Below, piece after piece: positions 7,735-63,647 of a stretch of 64,000 nt of DNA (positions are counted from its first letter, which is position 1; each line of letters begins with the position of its first letter). The stretch lies in NCBI GenBank assembly GCA_031277105.1, contig JAISLW010000268.1:34698-98697 (forward strand). Direction: 5' to 3'. The notes under the pieces are model-generated. The model saw nothing but the letters and a program-made list of their open reading frames with translations. It did no database searches and had not been told where the DNA came from. The DNA comes from Planctomycetaceae bacterium (GTDB lineage: Bacteria > Planctomycetota > Planctomycetia > Pirellulales > Thermoguttaceae). The translations under genes and the position numbers were made by a program.

Positions 7735-7753
7735 ATCTACGATAGTAGAAATT
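7735..7753 (-). repeat. Cas12a-like repeat hairpin
   Basis: AATTTCTACTATCGTAGAT preceded by AGAAGTATTACTT. Confidence 0.7.
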
Positions 7754-7826
7754 AAGTAATACTTCTAAAAAAAACAAATGACCCAAGAATACAAACATAA
7801 TTCCGCATCCCAAATTCCAAAAATTT

Positions 7827-9706: not shown

Positions 9707-9725
9707 ATCTACGATAGTAAAAATT
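9707..9725 (-). repeat. Cas12a-like repeat hairpin
   Basis: AATTTTTACTATCGTAGAT. Confidence 0.5.
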
Positions 9726-9740
9726 TTAACGTTCAAGAAA

Positions 9741-23226: not shown

Positions 23227-24264
23227 TTAAAGCAACGACAAAAACTCCTTGATGTCTAAAAAGTAACTCGGATACGCCTCGCATATATACTGTACGTCTT
23301 TGACCGAGACCAGAACAATATCAACATCACCACTGACATAATCTGGATTCTGTTCACGTGATTTATAAAACGCCAACGCCAAATCTAACGTGTCAGAATT
23401 AACGCCAAAAATATGAATTGTATGACGCTTAAAATCAACTTCCAAAATACAATAATCATAATTTGTACCAGACGATTCACGAACCGTTATAGGCAACGAA
23501 GACAACTTTGCAATAAATGAATCTTTATTTAAGGCTGTCAATTTATTGTTTATTGTAGTTTCATCGTCGTTTGCGTAAATTTCTACAACAGGCATATTTT
23601 CCTTGACAGCAAACAGAGCGCTAACACACTTGAAAAAATCTGACCAGCCGTCAGCGTCATCCGTTTTACTTACCTTTAATCTCTTGCCGTAAACCTTATC
23701 AACCGTTTCGATAGCCATCGCCCATAAATGTTGATAACGAGTCCGAATCTGTAACTCAAACCGCAAACCGTCAAATTCGGGTCGTTCCGAATTAACATTT
23801 TTCAAAACAAAATGAACAGAACGATAACCCGTTTTACACGGATGCATAACTAAATCACGAACCCGCTCAATGACAAAACAATCTGATAAAAATTCTTTTT
23901 GACGCTCAATAAAATCAGTAAACAACCGATTATTGTCTGATTGCGAATTCGTAGGCGTAAGAACATAACGCATTCCGACTATATCTTGTATTTGCGATAA
24001 TTTTAAGCGGGGAATTCGTTTTAATTTATCAATAATGGCTATTGCACGTTTTGCTCTGGAAGACACGGTTATATCAAAACCGCAACCGTTAGAATTAACT
24101 ATATCAGCAGGATTACACGACGTTTGGGGAATAAAATCAAACAAAAAATGAGTATGCAATTCCCGCCAAGAGTTCAATACGGTCAAAGCGTCCTCATTTT
24201 TTGGATCACTAATAAGCGTATCGCCCGCATCATCTATTTCTTTTAGATTGTATTCATTAATCAT
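23227..24264 (-). CDS. RelA/SpoT-domain protein (alarmone-synthetase-like / toxSAS-like)
   Basis: SSRAKRAIAIIDKLKRIPRLKLSQIQDIVGMRYVL...GYRSVHFVLK...FELQIRTRYQHLWAMAIETVDKVYGK. Confidence 0.75.
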   Translation of the reverse strand: MINEYNLKEIDDAGDTLISDPKNEDALTVLNSWRELHTHFLFDFIPQTSCNPADIVNSNGCGFDITVSSRAKRAIAIIDKLKRIPRLKLSQIQDIVGMRYVLTPTNSQSDNNRLFTDFIERQKEFLSDCFVIERVRDLVMHPCKTGYRSVHFVLKNVNSERPEFDGLRFELQIRTRYQHLWAMAIETVDKVYGKRLKVSKTDDADGWSDFFKCVSALFAVKENMPVVEIYANDDETTINNKLTALNKDSFIAKLSSLPITVRESSGTNYDYCILEVDFKRHTIHIFGVNSDTLDLALAFYKSREQNPDYVSGDVDIVLVSVKDVQYICEAYPSYFLDIKEFLSLL

Positions 24265-24280
24265 TAAATATATCTCCTAA

Positions 24281-25084
24281 CTAATCCCGTATCTTTAATT
24301 TATTTATAATTTTTTTGTATGATTTGTTTTTTATTTTATTTTTTGCACTCATTTTGTCCAATTCATCTTTAATGAAAGGCAACAGTTGTTCTGCTAATCG
24401 AAACATATTGGTAGAAAATAGCTTTGGTATGCCGTTGTTGTCTTCTTCGTAGTTAGATTTAGAATTGACGATTGCGGTTTCAATATCGAAAATGGCGTAT
24501 CGCGGATCAATACCGCCTTTGACTTTACGGTTAAGATAGGTCTTAAACTCTTGGCTTATTTTAAGAGCATTTTCAGGAATGCTAAAGTCTTTGGGCTTCT
24601 GATTGAATTTTCCGTAATAAAGCCAAATTTCCAAACAAGAATTACTAACTATCAAAGAGATATTTAACTCTTCGCATTTCGGTTTAATTCTCAACAAATC
24701 ATTCATAAAATGATCTACGTCAGACACGATGAAAATATTATCCGGTTCGTCGTCTTGACTTGATTGGTATCGTCTTTGTTCGTCTTCGGCTTTTTGTAAC
24801 AAGCCGTCTGGATGCAATTGATTGGGATCAGCGACAAAACTAATTTTTATTCTGCGGAATTCGTCCTGTCTTTCAATAATTTTGAAATACTTCTTTTCGC
24901 GTACTTCACCGCCGGAAATAATTACAAAAAAAGTTTTAGGCGATTTCACGCCAGATACTTTTTTGTGATTTACGTCCACAACATTAACGGGCATAACCGA
25001 AAGTTCTGAAACGACAACATCCGTTTTTTGTGCTTCCTGCCCTAATACAAGTTTTTCAGAAATTGGTTTTGTGTAACTTCTCAT
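24281..25084 (-). CDS. RloB-like (TOPRIM-type) protein
   Basis: KTFFVIISGGEVREKKYFKII...NIFIVSDVDHFMND...LIVSNSCLEIWLYYGKF; overlaps RloA-like gene by 4 nt. Confidence 0.7.
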   Translation of the reverse strand: MRSYTKPISEKLVLGQEAQKTDVVVSELSVMPVNVVDVNHKKVSGVKSPKTFFVIISGGEVREKKYFKIIERQDEFRRIKISFVADPNQLHPDGLLQKAEDEQRRYQSSQDDEPDNIFIVSDVDHFMNDLLRIKPKCEELNISLIVSNSCLEIWLYYGKFNQKPKDFSIPENALKISQEFKTYLNRKVKGGIDPRYAIFDIETAIVNSKSNYEEDNNGIPKLFSTNMFRLAEQLLPFIKDELDKMSAKNKIKNKSYKKIINKLKIRD

Positions 25085-26397
25085 TCTTTAATACAGTCTA
25101 TACTGATTTCGTCAATTACAGGCGTAGCGCCATAACGACCTTCTAAATAACCATTTTCGATATTCGACGTATTATGCAACTTAAAATCGTTCAACGAGTA
25201 CAACTTCGTGTTTCCTTCAAATTTTTCTGTAAACCAAATTTCATCCGGTCGAACTAATTCATGACGATTTAACAAATGCGTTACATGCGTAGTGAAAATA
25301 AGTTGTCCCCTAGCATTGTTGTTAGCGTAAAAACGCAAGAGTTCAAACATTAAACGAGGATGTAGACTACTTTCAATTTCGTCAATAAAAATAACTTTCC
25401 CTTCCTGTATTACACTCCATAACGCAGGAATTAGAGTTAAAAGTCGCACAGTTCCATCCGATTGAGCGGATATTTTCATTGCTTTATGATAACCACATTG
25501 TCCTACTTGGTCGAACAATAATTCCTGTACCGTTTTTTTACCTTCATGAATTGTAACATTCAATACGTTACGATTATTTTGAAGTTGTGCAATATCACTA
25601 TTTTCCGACAATGGATTACTATTGATGATTTGATTTAACTCTGTTGCATTTGTAGATTCCGTAATTAATTTTTCAAAAGGAATATCGTGGATTTTAATCT
25701 CATCAATACCAATTCCGATATTTCTAAAAAAATTATTTGCGAAACTTAAAATTTGCGGTTTTTGCGACAACAATTTTATAAGCATTGGAATAGTACTGTT
25801 TGCTAATATGACTTCAATTTTTTTGGAAAACCAATCGTAAACATGTTTGACTTTTTCACTCGCAAGAACAGGAAATTGTAAATTCAAGGGGATCAATGAA
25901 GATCGGGAATTCATGGAAAGTAATTTTTTAACAAGAGGTTCATTTTGAATTGACGGAGCAACAATACTTGTTCCTTTTCTTTCAAATATTAGTTCATCAT
26001 CTGTTTTTCCTACGCCTGATTTTGATAATTTTTCAAAAACTTCTTTTTTGCTGATTTCAACGTTATAAATGTAATATTCTTCTCGATGAAAAAATTCTAT
26101 CTCAAAAGATATTGTCTGCGATTTTTCTTTTGTAAGTTGGAAAATATAATCATTCCAAGTAATTGATTTCAAGAAATTTTTGCGTGTTACAAATTCACGC
26201 AAAAAGATAACAGCTTTGATAAAATTTGATTTGCCTGATCCATTAGCGCCGTAAATTGCGGTTTGTTTCAATACAGGTATTTCCATATTGTCATGTATAT
26301 GGAGTTGAAAACTTTTGTGTTCAATATTCGGAAACATATCAAACACAGTTTCTCCGTTAAACGATAGGAAGTTTTTTATCTTTAACCTTAGTAACAT
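25081..26397 (-). CDS. RloA-like AAA ATPase
   Basis: LRLKIKNFLSFNGE; Walker A IYGANGSGKSNFIKAV; Walker B VIFIDEIESSLHPRL; TTHVTHLL. Confidence 0.75.
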   Translation of the reverse strand: MLLRLKIKNFLSFNGETVFDMFPNIEHKSFQLHIHDNMEIPVLKQTAIYGANGSGKSNFIKAVIFLREFVTRKNFLKSITWNDYIFQLTKEKSQTISFEIEFFHREEYYIYNVEISKKEVFEKLSKSGVGKTDDELIFERKGTSIVAPSIQNEPLVKKLLSMNSRSSLIPLNLQFPVLASEKVKHVYDWFSKKIEVILANSTIPMLIKLLSQKPQILSFANNFFRNIGIGIDEIKIHDIPFEKLITESTNATELNQIINSNPLSENSDIAQLQNNRNVLNVTIHEGKKTVQELLFDQVGQCGYHKAMKISAQSDGTVRLLTLIPALWSVIQEGKVIFIDEIESSLHPRLMFELLRFYANNNARGQLIFTTHVTHLLNRHELVRPDEIWFTEKFEGNTKLYSLNDFKLHNTSNIENGYLEGRYGATPVIDEISIDCIKE

Positions 26398-26406
26398 AAT
26401 TTTTTA

Positions 26407-26441
26407 ATCTACAATAGTAGAAGTATATGTGGTCTTATCAC
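26407..26441 (-). ncRNA. solitary type V-A-like CRISPR repeat unit
   Basis: GTGATAAGACCACATATACTTCTACTATTGTAGAT; TCTAC-TATT-GTAGA hairpin; 9 nt before the RloA-like ATG. Confidence 0.6.
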
Positions 26442-26635
26442 AATATGTCTGTTATACTTCGCACACTTTAAATTTCGGTTTTTGCTTTTTGATTTAATTA
26501 CAATACACTGAAAATTCAAGTACAAAAAGTATAAAGTAGTAACATGCCAATAATACGTTTACTTACATATCGCAATTGCTAGATTGCGGTCAAATGGACA
26601 ATAGGGAATGGCGTCAAAGGTGGCGCTAATTATTT

Positions 26636-29966: not shown

Positions 29967-31265
29967 CTATTTTTCTGCAAATTGTCTTGAGCCGCAAACG
30001 GGACATACTGATTGACTGGATAATAATTCATTCATTTCAACTAAACCTTTTTCAACTTTATCTAGCGCCGTTTCAATTTCTAACAACGTTGAAATATGTT
30101 TGGTCAAAGTATTCAAATCGTTTCGCATTGCCGTTAATTTTTCTAGTTTGGCGTTTATTTTTGAAGTGTCAGGTATTTCAGGAATGTTGTTTAATAATTT
30201 TGTTAAGTTGTTGTACTGCTTGTATAACGTGTGAAGTTTATTTGTTTCGTCTTGTAACGGCGTAACGTCGGGTATCGCTTGCGGCGTATTTTTTAACAAC
30301 GTATTCAAAACGTCTAGATCGTTTCGCATTTTCGTTACTTTATTCAATTCGGCGCTTATCTTGGAAGTATCTGGCACGTCGCAAACGTTGTTTAACAATT
30401 CAGTCAAATTTGAATATCGCTCGTACAAGTTGCAAATTTGCACTAATTCATTTTGTAACGGCGCTACATCGGGAATCGCATACGGCGCTTGACCAATTAA
30501 ACCAGTCAATAACGAATTCCGTTTATCCAATTCAAAATATTCAACGTAACTCGATTCCAACGCCGCAAACGATTTCAAGAGATGTTGAATGTTGTTAAAT
30601 TCATCGTCGTATTTAACGGCGATTGCAAGCAAAGATTCCAATAATTCGTTTTTGGTTTTAATTTTATTGACTGATTTTTCTAACGTTTCAACTTCTTGCA
30701 ATTCCGTTTCGGCGTTTTCTGTCCATTGCAACGATTCGACTTTCAATTGCAACGAATTCAAATTAGTTTCGGAAGCGGCGTATAACGCTTGCGTTTCCCG
30801 TTTATCGGAATTCGATTGCGATTGTAATCGATCCAACCATGCTATATCCGCAATTTGATTTAACTCTTTGGCTAATTGACCTGCCGTGAGCGAAAACCAA
30901 AACGGCGCATCAAATTGATATTGGACGTTTAAATTACTGACTTTTGTCAATTTCAAAATTGATTCCGGCACGTCCCTGCCTACAGCGTTACAAACTGAAT
31001 TATCGGGCAAAACGTAACCGTTATTCGTTTTGTTTTTGATCCTCGTTATCGTATCGCCGTCCGCAACTAACGTAACTTTACATTCATTTTGACCGTGCGT
31101 AATAAACGAATCGCCTTGCAAGTTATTGAACAGTAACCAACTCAAACTCCGCATAATCGCCGATTTACCCGTATCCGATTCGCCGCATATCGTCGTAATT
31201 TGCGATAACGGCACGGTCAAATTACGATGACATTGAAAATTATACAATTGCAATTTCGTAAACAT
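29967..31265 (-). CDS. Rad50/SbcC-like ATPase N-terminal half with zinc hook
   Basis: LYNFQCHRNL; Walker A GESDTGKSAIMRSL; coiled coil; terminal CPVCGS. Confidence 0.75.
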   Translation of the reverse strand: MFTKLQLYNFQCHRNLTVPLSQITTICGESDTGKSAIMRSLSWLLFNNLQGDSFITHGQNECKVTLVADGDTITRIKNKTNNGYVLPDNSVCNAVGRDVPESILKLTKVSNLNVQYQFDAPFWFSLTAGQLAKELNQIADIAWLDRLQSQSNSDKRETQALYAASETNLNSLQLKVESLQWTENAETELQEVETLEKSVNKIKTKNELLESLLAIAVKYDDEFNNIQHLLKSFAALESSYVEYFELDKRNSLLTGLIGQAPYAIPDVAPLQNELVQICNLYERYSNLTELLNNVCDVPDTSKISAELNKVTKMRNDLDVLNTLLKNTPQAIPDVTPLQDETNKLHTLYKQYNNLTKLLNNIPEIPDTSKINAKLEKLTAMRNDLNTLTKHISTLLEIETALDKVEKGLVEMNELLSSQSVCPVCGSRQFAEK

Positions 31266-31371: not shown

Positions 31372-32133
31372 TTATACTTCTACTATCGTAGAGTATATGA
31401 AACTATTTTTAACTTGTTCGATACGCTCGTTTGCCATCTTGCAATATGTTTCTGAAATTTCGATACCGATGTATTTTCGTTTTAGTTGTACGGCTGCTAC
31501 GGCTGTCGTTCCGCTGCCTATGAACGGGTCAAGTATTATTTCCGCAGCCGTCGAACTGATGATACGTTTGACTAGATTAACTGGAAACGGCGCCGGATGC
31601 TTGTTATTCAACTCTTGCGTAAACGTCCAAACGTCGCCGTAACGGTTCATCGTGGGCAACAACTTAAATTGCGGTTTGCAAATCAAATAGATTACTTCAT
31701 ACGTTGGCACAAAATAACCGTCGTTAAAATTTACGCCGCCTGCACGCCGCCATATAATTATTTGACGTACAGGAAAACCGTTGACTATATCTTGACGGTC
31801 TTGCATCAAACCTGATTGAACGCGCCATTTATGATTGTAAAAAATAGCGCCGTCAGGCTTGATTAAACGCAACATCTCACGCAAACATTCACGTTGCCAT
31901 CGAACATAAACTTCATGCGGTAAATTATCATCATACGTATCGTAACCGTTGACTAGATTACTTACAAAATTCAATTTACGATTCGTTCCGTTGTTACTGC
32001 CTTTTTTGAAATTACCGCTTGTAGAATTACGCAAGTTATACGGCGGCGACGTTATTACCAAATCTATCGATTCATCTGAAAACGACCGCATAACGTCAAT
32101 ACAATCACCGCATATTATTTTGTTATACTCCAT
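31372..32133 (-). CDS. site-specific DNA methyltransferase (beta-class)
   Basis: DLVITSPPYNLRN then DPFIGSGTTAVAAVQLKRKYIGIEI. Confidence 0.8.
   Translation of the reverse strand: MEYNKIICGDCIDVMRSFSDESIDLVITSPPYNLRNSTSGNFKKGSNNGTNRKLNFVSNLVNGYDTYDDNLPHEVYVRWQRECLREMLRLIKPDGAIFYNHKWRVQSGLMQDRQDIVNGFPVRQIIIWRRAGGVNFNDGYFVPTYEVIYLICKPQFKLLPTMNRYGDVWTFTQELNNKHPAPFPVNLVKRIISSTAAEIILDPFIGSGTTAVAAVQLKRKYIGIEISETYCKMANERIEQVKNSFIYSTIVEV
31377..31393 (+). repeat. Cas12a-like repeat hairpin overlapping methyltransferase stop region
   Basis: CTTCTACTATCGTAGAG. Confidence 0.5.
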
Positions 32134-39639: not shown

Positions 39640-39694
39640 ATACTTCTACTATTGCAGAAGCAGAAGTATTATTTAATTTCTACTATCGTAAGAT
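39640..39694 (+). repeat. two-hairpin element ending in Cas12a-like repeat
   Basis: ATACTTCTACTATTGCAGAAGcagAAGTAT then AATTTCTACTATCGTAAGAT. Confidence 0.7.
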
Positions 39695-42887: not shown

Positions 42888-42939
42888 AAAAATTCCTTTT
42901 CAAGATAATTTAATTTCTACTGTTATACGTAAGATCAAA

Positions 42940-43014
42940 AAACGGCGGCGGGACTTGAACCCGCATCTCAGTCATAACTGATCGCGCGATATGTTGCCAT
43001 TACACCACGCCGTT
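42940..43014 (-). tRNA. tRNA or tRNA-like gene, anticodon undetermined
   Basis: AACGGCG/CGCCGTT acceptor, GTGT-AATGGCA-ACAT D arm, GCGGG-TTCAAGT-CCCGC T arm all pair; 26-nt central region lacks a canonical anticodon arm. Confidence 0.65.
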
Positions 43015-43018
43015 TCCA

Positions 43019-43065
43019 ATCTACGATAGTAATTCTACAATAGTAGAAATATAAGGTCTTATCAC
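43019..43065 (-). ncRNA. solitary type V-A-like repeat plus half repeat upstream of tRNA
   Basis: GTGATAAGACCTTATATTTCTACTATTGTAGAATTACTATCGTAGAT. Confidence 0.6.
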
Positions 43066-44644: not shown

Positions 44645-45619
44645 TCAACTGTAAAGAATGTTTTCCAGCGATTGAAACGGTTTTGCTAAAGATTGGTAAA
44701 TGCAGTCGGTATCTTCTGTAACATTTTCCACTGAACAAAAACCATCTTTATCAGCGGTAACGTAATAATTGCAACAATCAGTAATTTTTTCTTTAATACT
44801 GAATACTTCAATCGCCCGCATGAAATACGGGCTGTATGTTGTCAATAAAATAGTCAAATTAAACGCTTTTTGCAATAATACTAACGCTTTGGCAAATTGA
44901 ATTTGCCATTCGGGATGTAAATGAATTTCGGGTTCGTCTAAAATCAACACATCTTCCTCTTGTATTGCATGGTTTTCTAAAAGGCGTTTAAGGATTAAAA
45001 ACGATTTCATTCCAGCTGAAACGTTAACGAGCTCTAATGATTCGTTAAGGTCTTTATAACGGTAACCTAATTGACCGTATTCTTTTTGTTCAAAGTTACC
45101 GTCAACAATGGAATTTAGCGCTGACCAAACTTTATTTAGTTTTTTTTCTGTAACTACTTCTTGTATCTCACTCTCTTTATTTTTAGAATGAAGCAATACG
45201 CGGTGCAAAGATTCTCTAGGATGCGTAATTGAAGTACGATACGAATCGATATAAAAAGCGTTATGAACAAGTCCAATATTATTTTCAAATGAAGAGCATC
45301 GTTTCTTGTTAAAATTGACGTTAATAGAATTGCCTTTAATGGTCAATTTCACCGTACTCTCTTCTGATAGATAATTGACGTGAACAAACTGATATGCAAA
45401 CTCTTTTCCAAAATTGTTTGAAATTATCTTTTTCTTAATTTCATCTTCGCTATCGTGTTGCATCACGTCATTGAGTTCCATAAAAGAGTTAAACGTACAA
45501 TACAGCGCTTTTCCAAACGTGCTTTTACCTGTATCGTTATTACCTGCGATTACAGTAATGCCTTGCAATTCTATTTCGGCTTCTCTGATTTTCCCAATAT
45601 TTTTGATTTTAAGAAGCAT
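44645..45619 (-). CDS. AAA ATPase (OLD/AAA_21-like)
   Basis: LLKIKNIGKIREAEIEL, Walker A IAGNNDTGKSTFGKAL, Walker B VLILDEPEIHLHPEWQ. Confidence 0.7.
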   Translation of the reverse strand: MLLKIKNIGKIREAEIELQGITVIAGNNDTGKSTFGKALYCTFNSFMELNDVMQHDSEDEIKKKIISNNFGKEFAYQFVHVNYLSEESTVKLTIKGNSINVNFNKKRCSSFENNIGLVHNAFYIDSYRTSITHPRESLHRVLLHSKNKESEIQEVVTEKKLNKVWSALNSIVDGNFEQKEYGQLGYRYKDLNESLELVNVSAGMKSFLILKRLLENHAIQEEDVLILDEPEIHLHPEWQIQFAKALVLLQKAFNLTILLTTYSPYFMRAIEVFSIKEKITDCCNYYVTADKDGFCSVENVTEDTDCIYQSLAKPFQSLENILYS

Positions 45620-47211: not shown

Positions 47212-47244
47212 ATCTACAACAGTAGAAATATAAGGTCTTATCAC
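47212..47244 (-). ncRNA. solitary type V-A-like CRISPR repeat unit
   Basis: GTGATAAGACCTTATATTTCTACTGTTGTAGAT. Confidence 0.65.
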
Positions 47245-49858: not shown

Positions 49859-50605
49859 TTATACTTCTACTATTGCAGAAGTATCATTAATTTTTACTAT
49901 TGTAGATCTGTCGTGTATGTTATTGTTCTTATTTTGTGTGATGTTTTTTTGGTTTTCGTATTCGAAGTGGCAAGCAAACATTAAGTTACAAAGGGCGTGC
50001 GAAAGATGCGGCTCACTTTTATCATCTTGTAAAAACAAAAAAATATGACGTATAGCATGATTTAATATATCATCGGTAGGAAATCCTTTTTTCCAATTAT
50101 TTTTTCCGTACTTAGTCTCGCCTTGTTTGAACACCATTGCAGCAAGTTCCAACGCTTTCGGCGGCAATAAATGATACGCTACATTATCTGCATCAATTGA
50201 ACGTTTAGCGCCAGATGCGAATTGTTTCATTTTTATTTCGTTTTCTGTTTTCATTTTCGGTTCTGTTTTTAGTTCAGCGTCGTCAAAAGGTTCAGCGTCA
50301 ACGCAAAAATACTCTTGGGAAAAGCAATCAATAATAATAGGTACATGCGGATATAATTCTTGTAACTTATTGACGACATCCTGAAAAGTTATAAAAAAAA
50401 CTGTACCCGATTGATTTGACAAATTTTTTAGAATCCACACATCATTCGACGCACGCTGTCTTATATACTCTTTTTTTAATTTCATAACAACTTCTTTTTT
50501 TCCTCGATTGTAACGTGAAATCACGTGTACGTTTGGTCGGACAGCATTTATTTCTAGGTAATCGTCGAGCGTATCGTCAGGCGATTGTTTAATTATAGAT
50601 TTCAT
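49859..50605 (-). CDS. orphan N-terminal domain fused to DUF5664-like (dATP/dGTP diphosphohydrolase-like) domain
   Basis: FASGAKRSIDADNVAYHLLPPKALELAAMVFKQGETKYGKNNWKKGF..LNHAIRHIFLFLQ. Confidence 0.5.
   Translation of the reverse strand: MKSIIKQSPDDTLDDYLEINAVRPNVHVISRYNRGKKEVVMKLKKEYIRQRASNDVWILKNLSNQSGTVFFITFQDVVNKLQELYPHVPIIIDCFSQEYFCVDAEPFDDAELKTEPKMKTENEIKMKQFASGAKRSIDADNVAYHLLPPKALELAAMVFKQGETKYGKNNWKKGFPTDDILNHAIRHIFLFLQDDKSEPHLSHALCNLMFACHFEYENQKNITQNKNNNIHDRSTIVKINDTSAIVEV
49861..49907 (+). repeat. two-hairpin element ending in Cas12a-like repeat
   Basis: ATACTTCTACTATTGCAGAAGTATCATTAATTTTTACTATTGTAGAT. Confidence 0.75.
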
Positions 50606-54632: not shown

Positions 54633-54734
54633 ATTACAAAACCAAAAATATTTTTAGATTTTTTTGGATAAATAATATTGGCATTGAAACGAAACTGGTT
54701 ATAATAATTATCAACTCGTCAAGTAACGACGTTA

Positions 54735-54780
54735 TACTTCTATTTTTGTAGAAGTAACATTAATTTCTACTATTGTAGAT
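54735..54780 (+). repeat. two-hairpin element ending in Cas12a-like repeat
   Basis: TACTTCTATTTTTGTAGAAGTA then AATTTCTACTATTGTAGAT. Confidence 0.8.
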
Positions 54781-63599: not shown

Positions 63600-63647
63600 A
63601 TCTACCATAGTAGAAATTAAATAATACTTTTGCAATAGTAAAAGTAT
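63600..63647 (-). repeat. two-hairpin element ending in Cas12a-like repeat
   Basis: ATACTTTTACTATTGCAAAAGTATTATTTAATTTCTACTATGGTAGAT. Confidence 0.75.

Follow-up and report, generated by a model that had tools for sequence, protein, structure and literature searches.

Putative Cas12a-repeat decoys in a prophage of a Cas12a-encoding Planctomycetaceae bacterium, one of them in the leader of an AbiL-like operon

Results

An AbiL-like operon preceded by a repeat unit

The window analysed here is a stretch of 64,000 nucleotides from a 171,649-base contig (C529) of a Planctomycetaceae bacterium, and positions refer to the window unless the contig is named. Three genes on the minus strand form an operon that is preceded by a repeat unit:

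23227..24264, minus strand: RelA/SpoT-domain protein, 345 aa (Pfam RelA_SpoT 9.2e-13, PADLOC PDC-S33 1.3e-71, PHROG 4773 1.7e-60)
24281..25084, minus strand: AbiLii / RloB-like protein, 267 aa (Pfam RloB 4.2e-21, PADLOC AbiLii 8.2e-16)
25081..26397, minus strand: AbiLi / RloA-like AAA ATPase, 438 aa (PADLOC AbiLi 1.5e-77, Pfam AAA_21 3.7e-31)
26407..26441, minus strand: type B unit (see below), a full-length Cas12a-repeat mimic and leader of the AbiL-like operon (sequence, array-repeat identity, fold)

An earlier note on this DNA had called the genes RloA-like, RloB-like and RelA/SpoT, and these calls are correct (AbiLi E=1.5e-77, AbiLii/RloB E=8e-16, RelA_SpoT E=9e-13). The homologues of AbiLi and AbiLii, whose adjacency defines AbiL, lie next to each other. 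A pattern search of IMG/VR for AbiL relatives gave none.

The unit itself is 35 nt long (GTGATAAGACCACATATACTTCTACTATTGTAGAT, minus strand, 26407-26441) and is separated by 9 nt (TAAAAAATT) from the ATG at 26397 of the AbiLi/RloA-like gene, which confirms the placement given in the earlier note. Its final 16 nt match the host array repeat exactly. The handle is ACTTCTAC, in place of the usual AATTTCTAC, and the RNA is predicted to fold into a 3-bp and a 5-bp hairpin, as in the host Cas12a repeat. When scored against intergenic controls, no sigma70 promoter of its own was recognisable at this unit.

For comparison, the AbiLi-AbiLii DNA of a genus-mate (G097) is 81% identical, with a 77%-identical AbiLi gene. 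The homology begins 2 nt before the ATG, and the leader in G097 is unrelated to that of the prophage and contains neither a repeat nor a Shine-Dalgarno sequence, which argues that the repeat leader belongs to this prophage as a module and is not a fixed part of AbiL. The earlier note had attributed a missing Shine-Dalgarno sequence to the repeat; the sequence is indeed missing, but the repeat is not the cause, since the repeat-free leader of the genus-mate lacks it too.

The contig reads as an integrated prophage

Genes for a terminase (TerL), portal, tape measure, maturation protease, helicase, DNA polymerase and RecA-like protein are located on C529, which therefore derives from a tailed phage. 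The right end of the contig contains an integrase and a cyclophilin-domain gene that is present in 19 of the 21 genomes of the host genus and has its sole copy in the host genome here. Because of these two genes, we read the contig as an integrated tailed prophage, and a free phage loosely binned with the host is less likely. No empty integration site could be shown and no att repeat was established. Also at the contig end, beside the cyclophilin gene, is a 1228-aa ankyrin-repeat gene (L016:8896-12582). Two further AAA ATPase genes of the prophage (44645-45619 and 29967-31265) resemble PtuA/AriA-like defence ATPases or SbcC-like exonucleases.

No phage-encoded Cas12 emerged from the large proteins scanned or from a similarity search with the host Cas12a. 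The closest relative according to its portal protein (44% identical) is a phage that lacks the repeats, and there is thus no conservation across phages that would show selection on the repeats. A megablast search of 25 kb against annotated phages gave no match.

A family of repeat units in two designs

To quantify how often the repeat recurs, we counted matches to different parts of it. The sequence GTGATAAGACC has exactly 3 matches in the window at <=1 mismatch (0.54 expected), while the hairpin half TTCTACTATTGTAGAT has 18 at <=3 mismatches against 0.82 expected, a count reached in 0 of 100 shuffles. On the full length of the contig (171.6 kb), we found AATTTCTACTATTGTAGAT, the 19-nt core, at 9 places with <=2 mismatches and at 10 with <=3; the corresponding means in 20 Markov-1 simulated sequences were 0 and 0.05. 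All 9 cores are located between 42 and 102 kb of C529 and most are intergenic. The units and associated features within the window, apart from the 26.4-kb unit, are:

7735..7755, minus strand: type A unit, core AATTTCTACTATCGTAGAT, degraded hairpin 1 (promoter not above background)
9707..9727, minus strand: degenerate core TTTTTACTATCGTAGAT behind a gene end, without promoter (sequence, promoter scan)
31374..31398, plus strand: degraded type A cassette, hairpin 1 only (sequence)
39640..39694, plus strand: degraded type A cassette, hairpin 1 and core with a one-base insertion (GTAAGAT) (sequence)
42939..43015, minus strand: tRNA-Ile(GAT) directly behind a type B unit (ARAGORN and Rfam)
43019..43065, minus strand: type B unit (43033-43065) overlapped by part of a second repeat, the whole ending 3 nt upstream of tRNA-Ile (sequence)
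47212..47244, minus strand: type B unit before a gene of unknown function (159 aa), an AAGGAG Shine-Dalgarno lying between repeat and ATG (sequence)
49861..49907, plus strand: type A cassette, hairpin 1 and core TTAATTTTTACTATTGTAGAT, opposed to genes (upstream -35/-10 in the top 1.1% of intergenic controls)
54678..54705, plus strand: predicted sigma70-like promoter TTGGCA-N16-TATAAT of the 54.7-kb cassette (top 0.3% of intergenic controls)
54734..54780, plus strand: type A cassette, hairpin 1 and core AATTTCTACTATTGTAGAT, identical to the host core (fold z=-3.8)
63600..63643, minus strand: type A cassette, hairpin 1 and core AATTTCTACTATGGTAGAT, with upstream promoter TTGACC-N15-TATAAT (promoter top 0.7%)

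The type B design is a full-length repeat that serves as a leader directly before a gene or tRNA (26.4, 43.0 and 47.2 kb), each unit leading something different: AbiLi, tRNA-Ile or the 159-aa gene, which had no match in Pfam, PHROG, NCBIfam or PADLOC. A promoter-like block is conserved upstream of these units, and the block GRCATATNGTGATAAGACC, which the earlier note had described as common to all three, was found again at both other sites. Their 5' part contains GATAAGAC, shared with the Cas12a repeat of a genus-mate (G107) at a score that shuffles attain in a fraction of 0.0035-0.03.

In the type A design, a hairpin (at most 10 bp) is separated by about 10 bases from the repeat core that follows it. 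These units are often opposed to genes (5 of 7 are oriented against their neighbours). Hairpin 1 (ACTTCTACTATTGTAGAAGT) is located 5' of the core at 54734-54758 and recurs in the sister units at 39640, 49861 and 31374; no match to the cassette pattern including this hairpin was found in IMG/VR. Several cassettes have upstream sequence in common, and at 4 of the 7 type A units the promoter scan placed a sigma70-like -35/-10 within the top 2% of intergenic controls (range 0.3-1.8%). These are the units at 49.9, 54.7 and 63.6 kb and a fourth cassette just outside the window, at 101.7 kb of C529. Several units of the family are in a degraded state.

The units are kilobases apart, with pairs at 14 or 27 bp, and are not array-like. 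We rejected a CRISPR array since the regular unique spacers that separate the repeats of an array are missing, and no repeat-spacer-repeat unit of normal size occurs among the repeat units of the prophage. The DNA downstream of the units is a gene start or coding sequence, a ribosome site, a tRNA or an antisense gene end, so that the units look like repeats without spacers. An Rfam scan for known RNAs recovered tRNA only, and NCBIfam gave no match to known anti-CRISPR proteins beside the units.

Cas12a loci and arrays of the host

The host genome contains two Cas12a proteins and two Cas12a arrays. A 1426-aa Cas12a with catalytic motifs is encoded on contig C56 next to one array. GTCAATAAAGACTCAAAAATTTCTACTATTGTAGAT is the repeat both of this array and of a longer one on C214, and the second Cas12a is encoded on C377. 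We considered this second protein as the owner of the GTGATAAGACC repeat and rejected it, there being no array on C377. Beside the long C214 array is a C-terminal cas12a remnant with a stop (L010:4231-4464), which suggests a second, decayed cas12a locus.

Elsewhere in the host genome, repeats with <=1 mismatch in the hairpin half were confined to the array copies and two single sites. One single repeat core, on contig C499 (L018:5296-5310), lies some 400 nt upstream of a gene for 1327 aa that gave no Pfam match. Among 396 genomes of the order, a full repeat of the GATAAGACC type was found in no genome except in this prophage. Comparison of the host spacers with the prophage gave no clear match, nothing beyond a 17-nt A-rich hit. 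The label of Cas12a-like repeat given by the earlier note is well supported: the core, the fold and the GATAAGAC half all have counterparts in Cas12a repeats of the host and its genus, and the host encodes Cas12a.

Solitary type V-A repeats in other viruses

The exact core was found in 55 IMG/VR stretches with the loop TATT and in 48 with other loops. None of 57 IMG/VR records searched over their whole length exceeded three copies when <=1 mismatch was allowed in the hairpin half, and the core was nearly always single. Solitary V-A repeats in phages are a known population, in which this prophage is an outlier in number.

We also examined the position of 53 intergenic V-A solitary repeats from IMG/VR relative to genes. 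A same-strand start was located within <=24 nt in 12 of them (control 10.6%, p=0.009), and the next gene was on the same strand in 36 (control 47%, p=0.002). From the former count, a position in a gene leader is moderately common for such repeats.

As a separate observation, a solitary Cas12a repeat (L092:247-266) is located about 180 nt upstream of cas12a in a metagenome-assembled genome labelled Bacteroidales; a CreR-like regulator might be placed in this manner.

Discussion

Decoy RNAs as the preferred interpretation

We consider it likely, judging from sequence, that the unit in front of the AbiL-like operon belongs to a set of about nine solitary type V-A repeat mimics, that is, Racr-like RNA anti-CRISPR units, in the prophage of a host with Cas12a. 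The units match the repeat of a known CRISPR subtype, with 16-19 nt of identity to the host array core and a corresponding fold. They are located on a mobile element on which no similarity to Cas12a was found, away from cas genes and from the arrays on C56 and C214. The host has the matching subtype, with Cas12a on C56 and C377, and the prophage is linked to a host gene. The earlier note had proposed a decoy as one option, and the idea is well founded, solitary V-A repeats of phages being an established kind of element with tested anti-CRISPR activity (RacrVA1-3; three such repeats inhibit a Cas12a system; PMC10651486).

The most likely function is that of decoy RNAs that would occupy Cas12a and blunt the CRISPR immunity of the host. 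We infer transcription of the units, binding by Cas12a and inhibition of CRISPR as successive steps. Type A units would be transcribed from their own promoters and type B units, including that at 26.4 kb, at the 5' end of the transcript of a gene or tRNA. The RNA would then fold into the hairpin recognised by Cas12a, which would bind it and probably cut just 5' of the hairpin. Cas12a loaded with phage-derived RNA that targets nothing would leave fewer molecules with real guides. Points that weigh against this interpretation are the lack of a recognisable promoter and the atypical handle at 26.4 kb, the decay of several units, the repeat-free related phage and the failure to find a clear match between host spacers and the prophage.

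A possible Cas12a-sensing leader

In another reading, which is compatible with a decoy role, Cas12a sits on the 5' leader of the AbiL-RelA/SpoT mRNA and hides the AUG, so that expression of the operon has to await the loss, inhibition or saturation of Cas12a. The distance of 9 nt from the repeat to the ATG is within the length of a Cas12a guide, and at 47.2 kb both the Shine-Dalgarno and the ATG fall inside the corresponding stretch. The coupling of operon expression to Cas12a, which the earlier note had suggested, is a mechanically plausible hypothesis, since the AUG is within the stretch that Cas12a would hold as a guide. Toxins repressed by Cas proteins exist (CreTA and CrePA; PMC12737573), and the IMG/VR repeats are enriched before same-strand starts, but this enrichment could reflect the mere use of gene promoters. 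The AbiL operon of the genus-mate (81% identical DNA) has an unrelated, repeat-free leader, and of the sister units, some precede a tRNA or an unknown gene and others are free-standing. Overall, we regard a sensing leader as possible but doubtful.

A still less probable extension is that the prophage uses Cas12a as a sensor, in which leader-bound Cas12a would silence the operon, the other decoys would set the threshold, and loss or inhibition of Cas12a, for example by the anti-CRISPR of a competing phage, would release it. If true, a Cas12a-responsive leader would to our knowledge be the first known mRNA leader switch that is read by a CRISPR effector.

Recognition as RNA or as DNA

The repeats could also be DNA operators, in which TCTAC-N4-GTAGA is the site at which a phage regulator binds at or near promoters and so controls several phage genes, and the match to the Cas12a repeat is coincidental or secondary. 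The core is palindromic and hairpin 1 is nearly symmetrical over 20 bp. Moreover, type B units occupy the leaders of three genes that are unrelated to one another, a conserved promoter-like block lies upstream of them, and the homology to the AbiL of the relative ends 2 nt before the ATG, as if the leader were an exchangeable expression module.

Several features argue against this. The asymmetry of the cores is that of the Cas12a handle: the stem is preceded by AATT or ATT (by ACTT in the 26.4-kb unit) and followed by GAT in 8 of 9 cores, and A(-18) is kept in all. Two changes have occurred in the stems of the cores, both from C to T (9.7 and 49.9 kb), and on the RNA strand each gives a G-U pair. 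Variation in the loop mostly concerns the last base, the usual loop is that of the host repeat, type B units have the second half GATAAGAC present in Cas12a repeats of the genus, and several type A units face away from genes. The asymmetry, the G-U-preserving changes and the loop variation favour recognition as RNA by Cas12a, and we consider an operator unlikely. It weighs most for hairpin 1, in which both compensated and broken pairs are present.

Guides and spacers

It is very improbable that the units give rise to crRNA-like RNAs of the CreR/CreA kind, whose downstream part partly matches a promoter (of cas12a or a phage gene) and directs repression by Cas12a. Such RNAs have been described for type V-A (PMC12737573), but the sequences downstream of the units match the host cas12a locus, and PAM-bearing sites in the prophage, no better than shuffled controls, and these chance-level matches argue against guiding. 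Even less credible is a viral mini-array whose genuine spacers would target competing phages. Mini-arrays built on host repeats can occur in phages (PMC11656645), but the DNA behind the units is not free spacer, the repeat-spacer-repeat structure is absent, and no spacer targets above chance were found in the two sequences searched, the prophage itself and the cas12a locus.

Comparison with known systems

Solitary mimics acting as decoys, the reading that we prefer, share features with several described systems. Like viral CRISPR mini-arrays (PMC11656645), the prophage carries repeats of the host type in a virus, but here no spacer is bounded by two full repeats. As in CreR, CreTA and CrePA (PMC12737573), a repeat-bearing RNA would be coupled to a Cas protein, and one unit adjoins an abortive-infection-like operon; in contrast to these, there is no partial guide match to a promoter and the units are located in a prophage rather than at a cas locus. 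The operon matches both proteins of AbiL (AbiLi/AbiLii) and its third gene the candidate PDC-S33, but it is prophage-borne and has a Cas12a-repeat leader that is absent from the nearest relative.

The Racr and type V-A solitary repeat units (PMC10651486) are likewise intergenic mimics, in phages or prophages, of the repeat of the host subtype and are often located behind a promoter. Here, in contrast, about nine units of predicted activity are present in one prophage and in two designs, of which one has an extra hairpin of 10 bp and the other is fused to gene or tRNA leaders. The element is thus of a known kind and is unusual in its copy number and designs. The presence of about nine units, partly in gene and tRNA leaders, suggests that dosage is important when the effector is a single protein, and that a decoy can arise by the placement of a repeat within ordinary phage messages.
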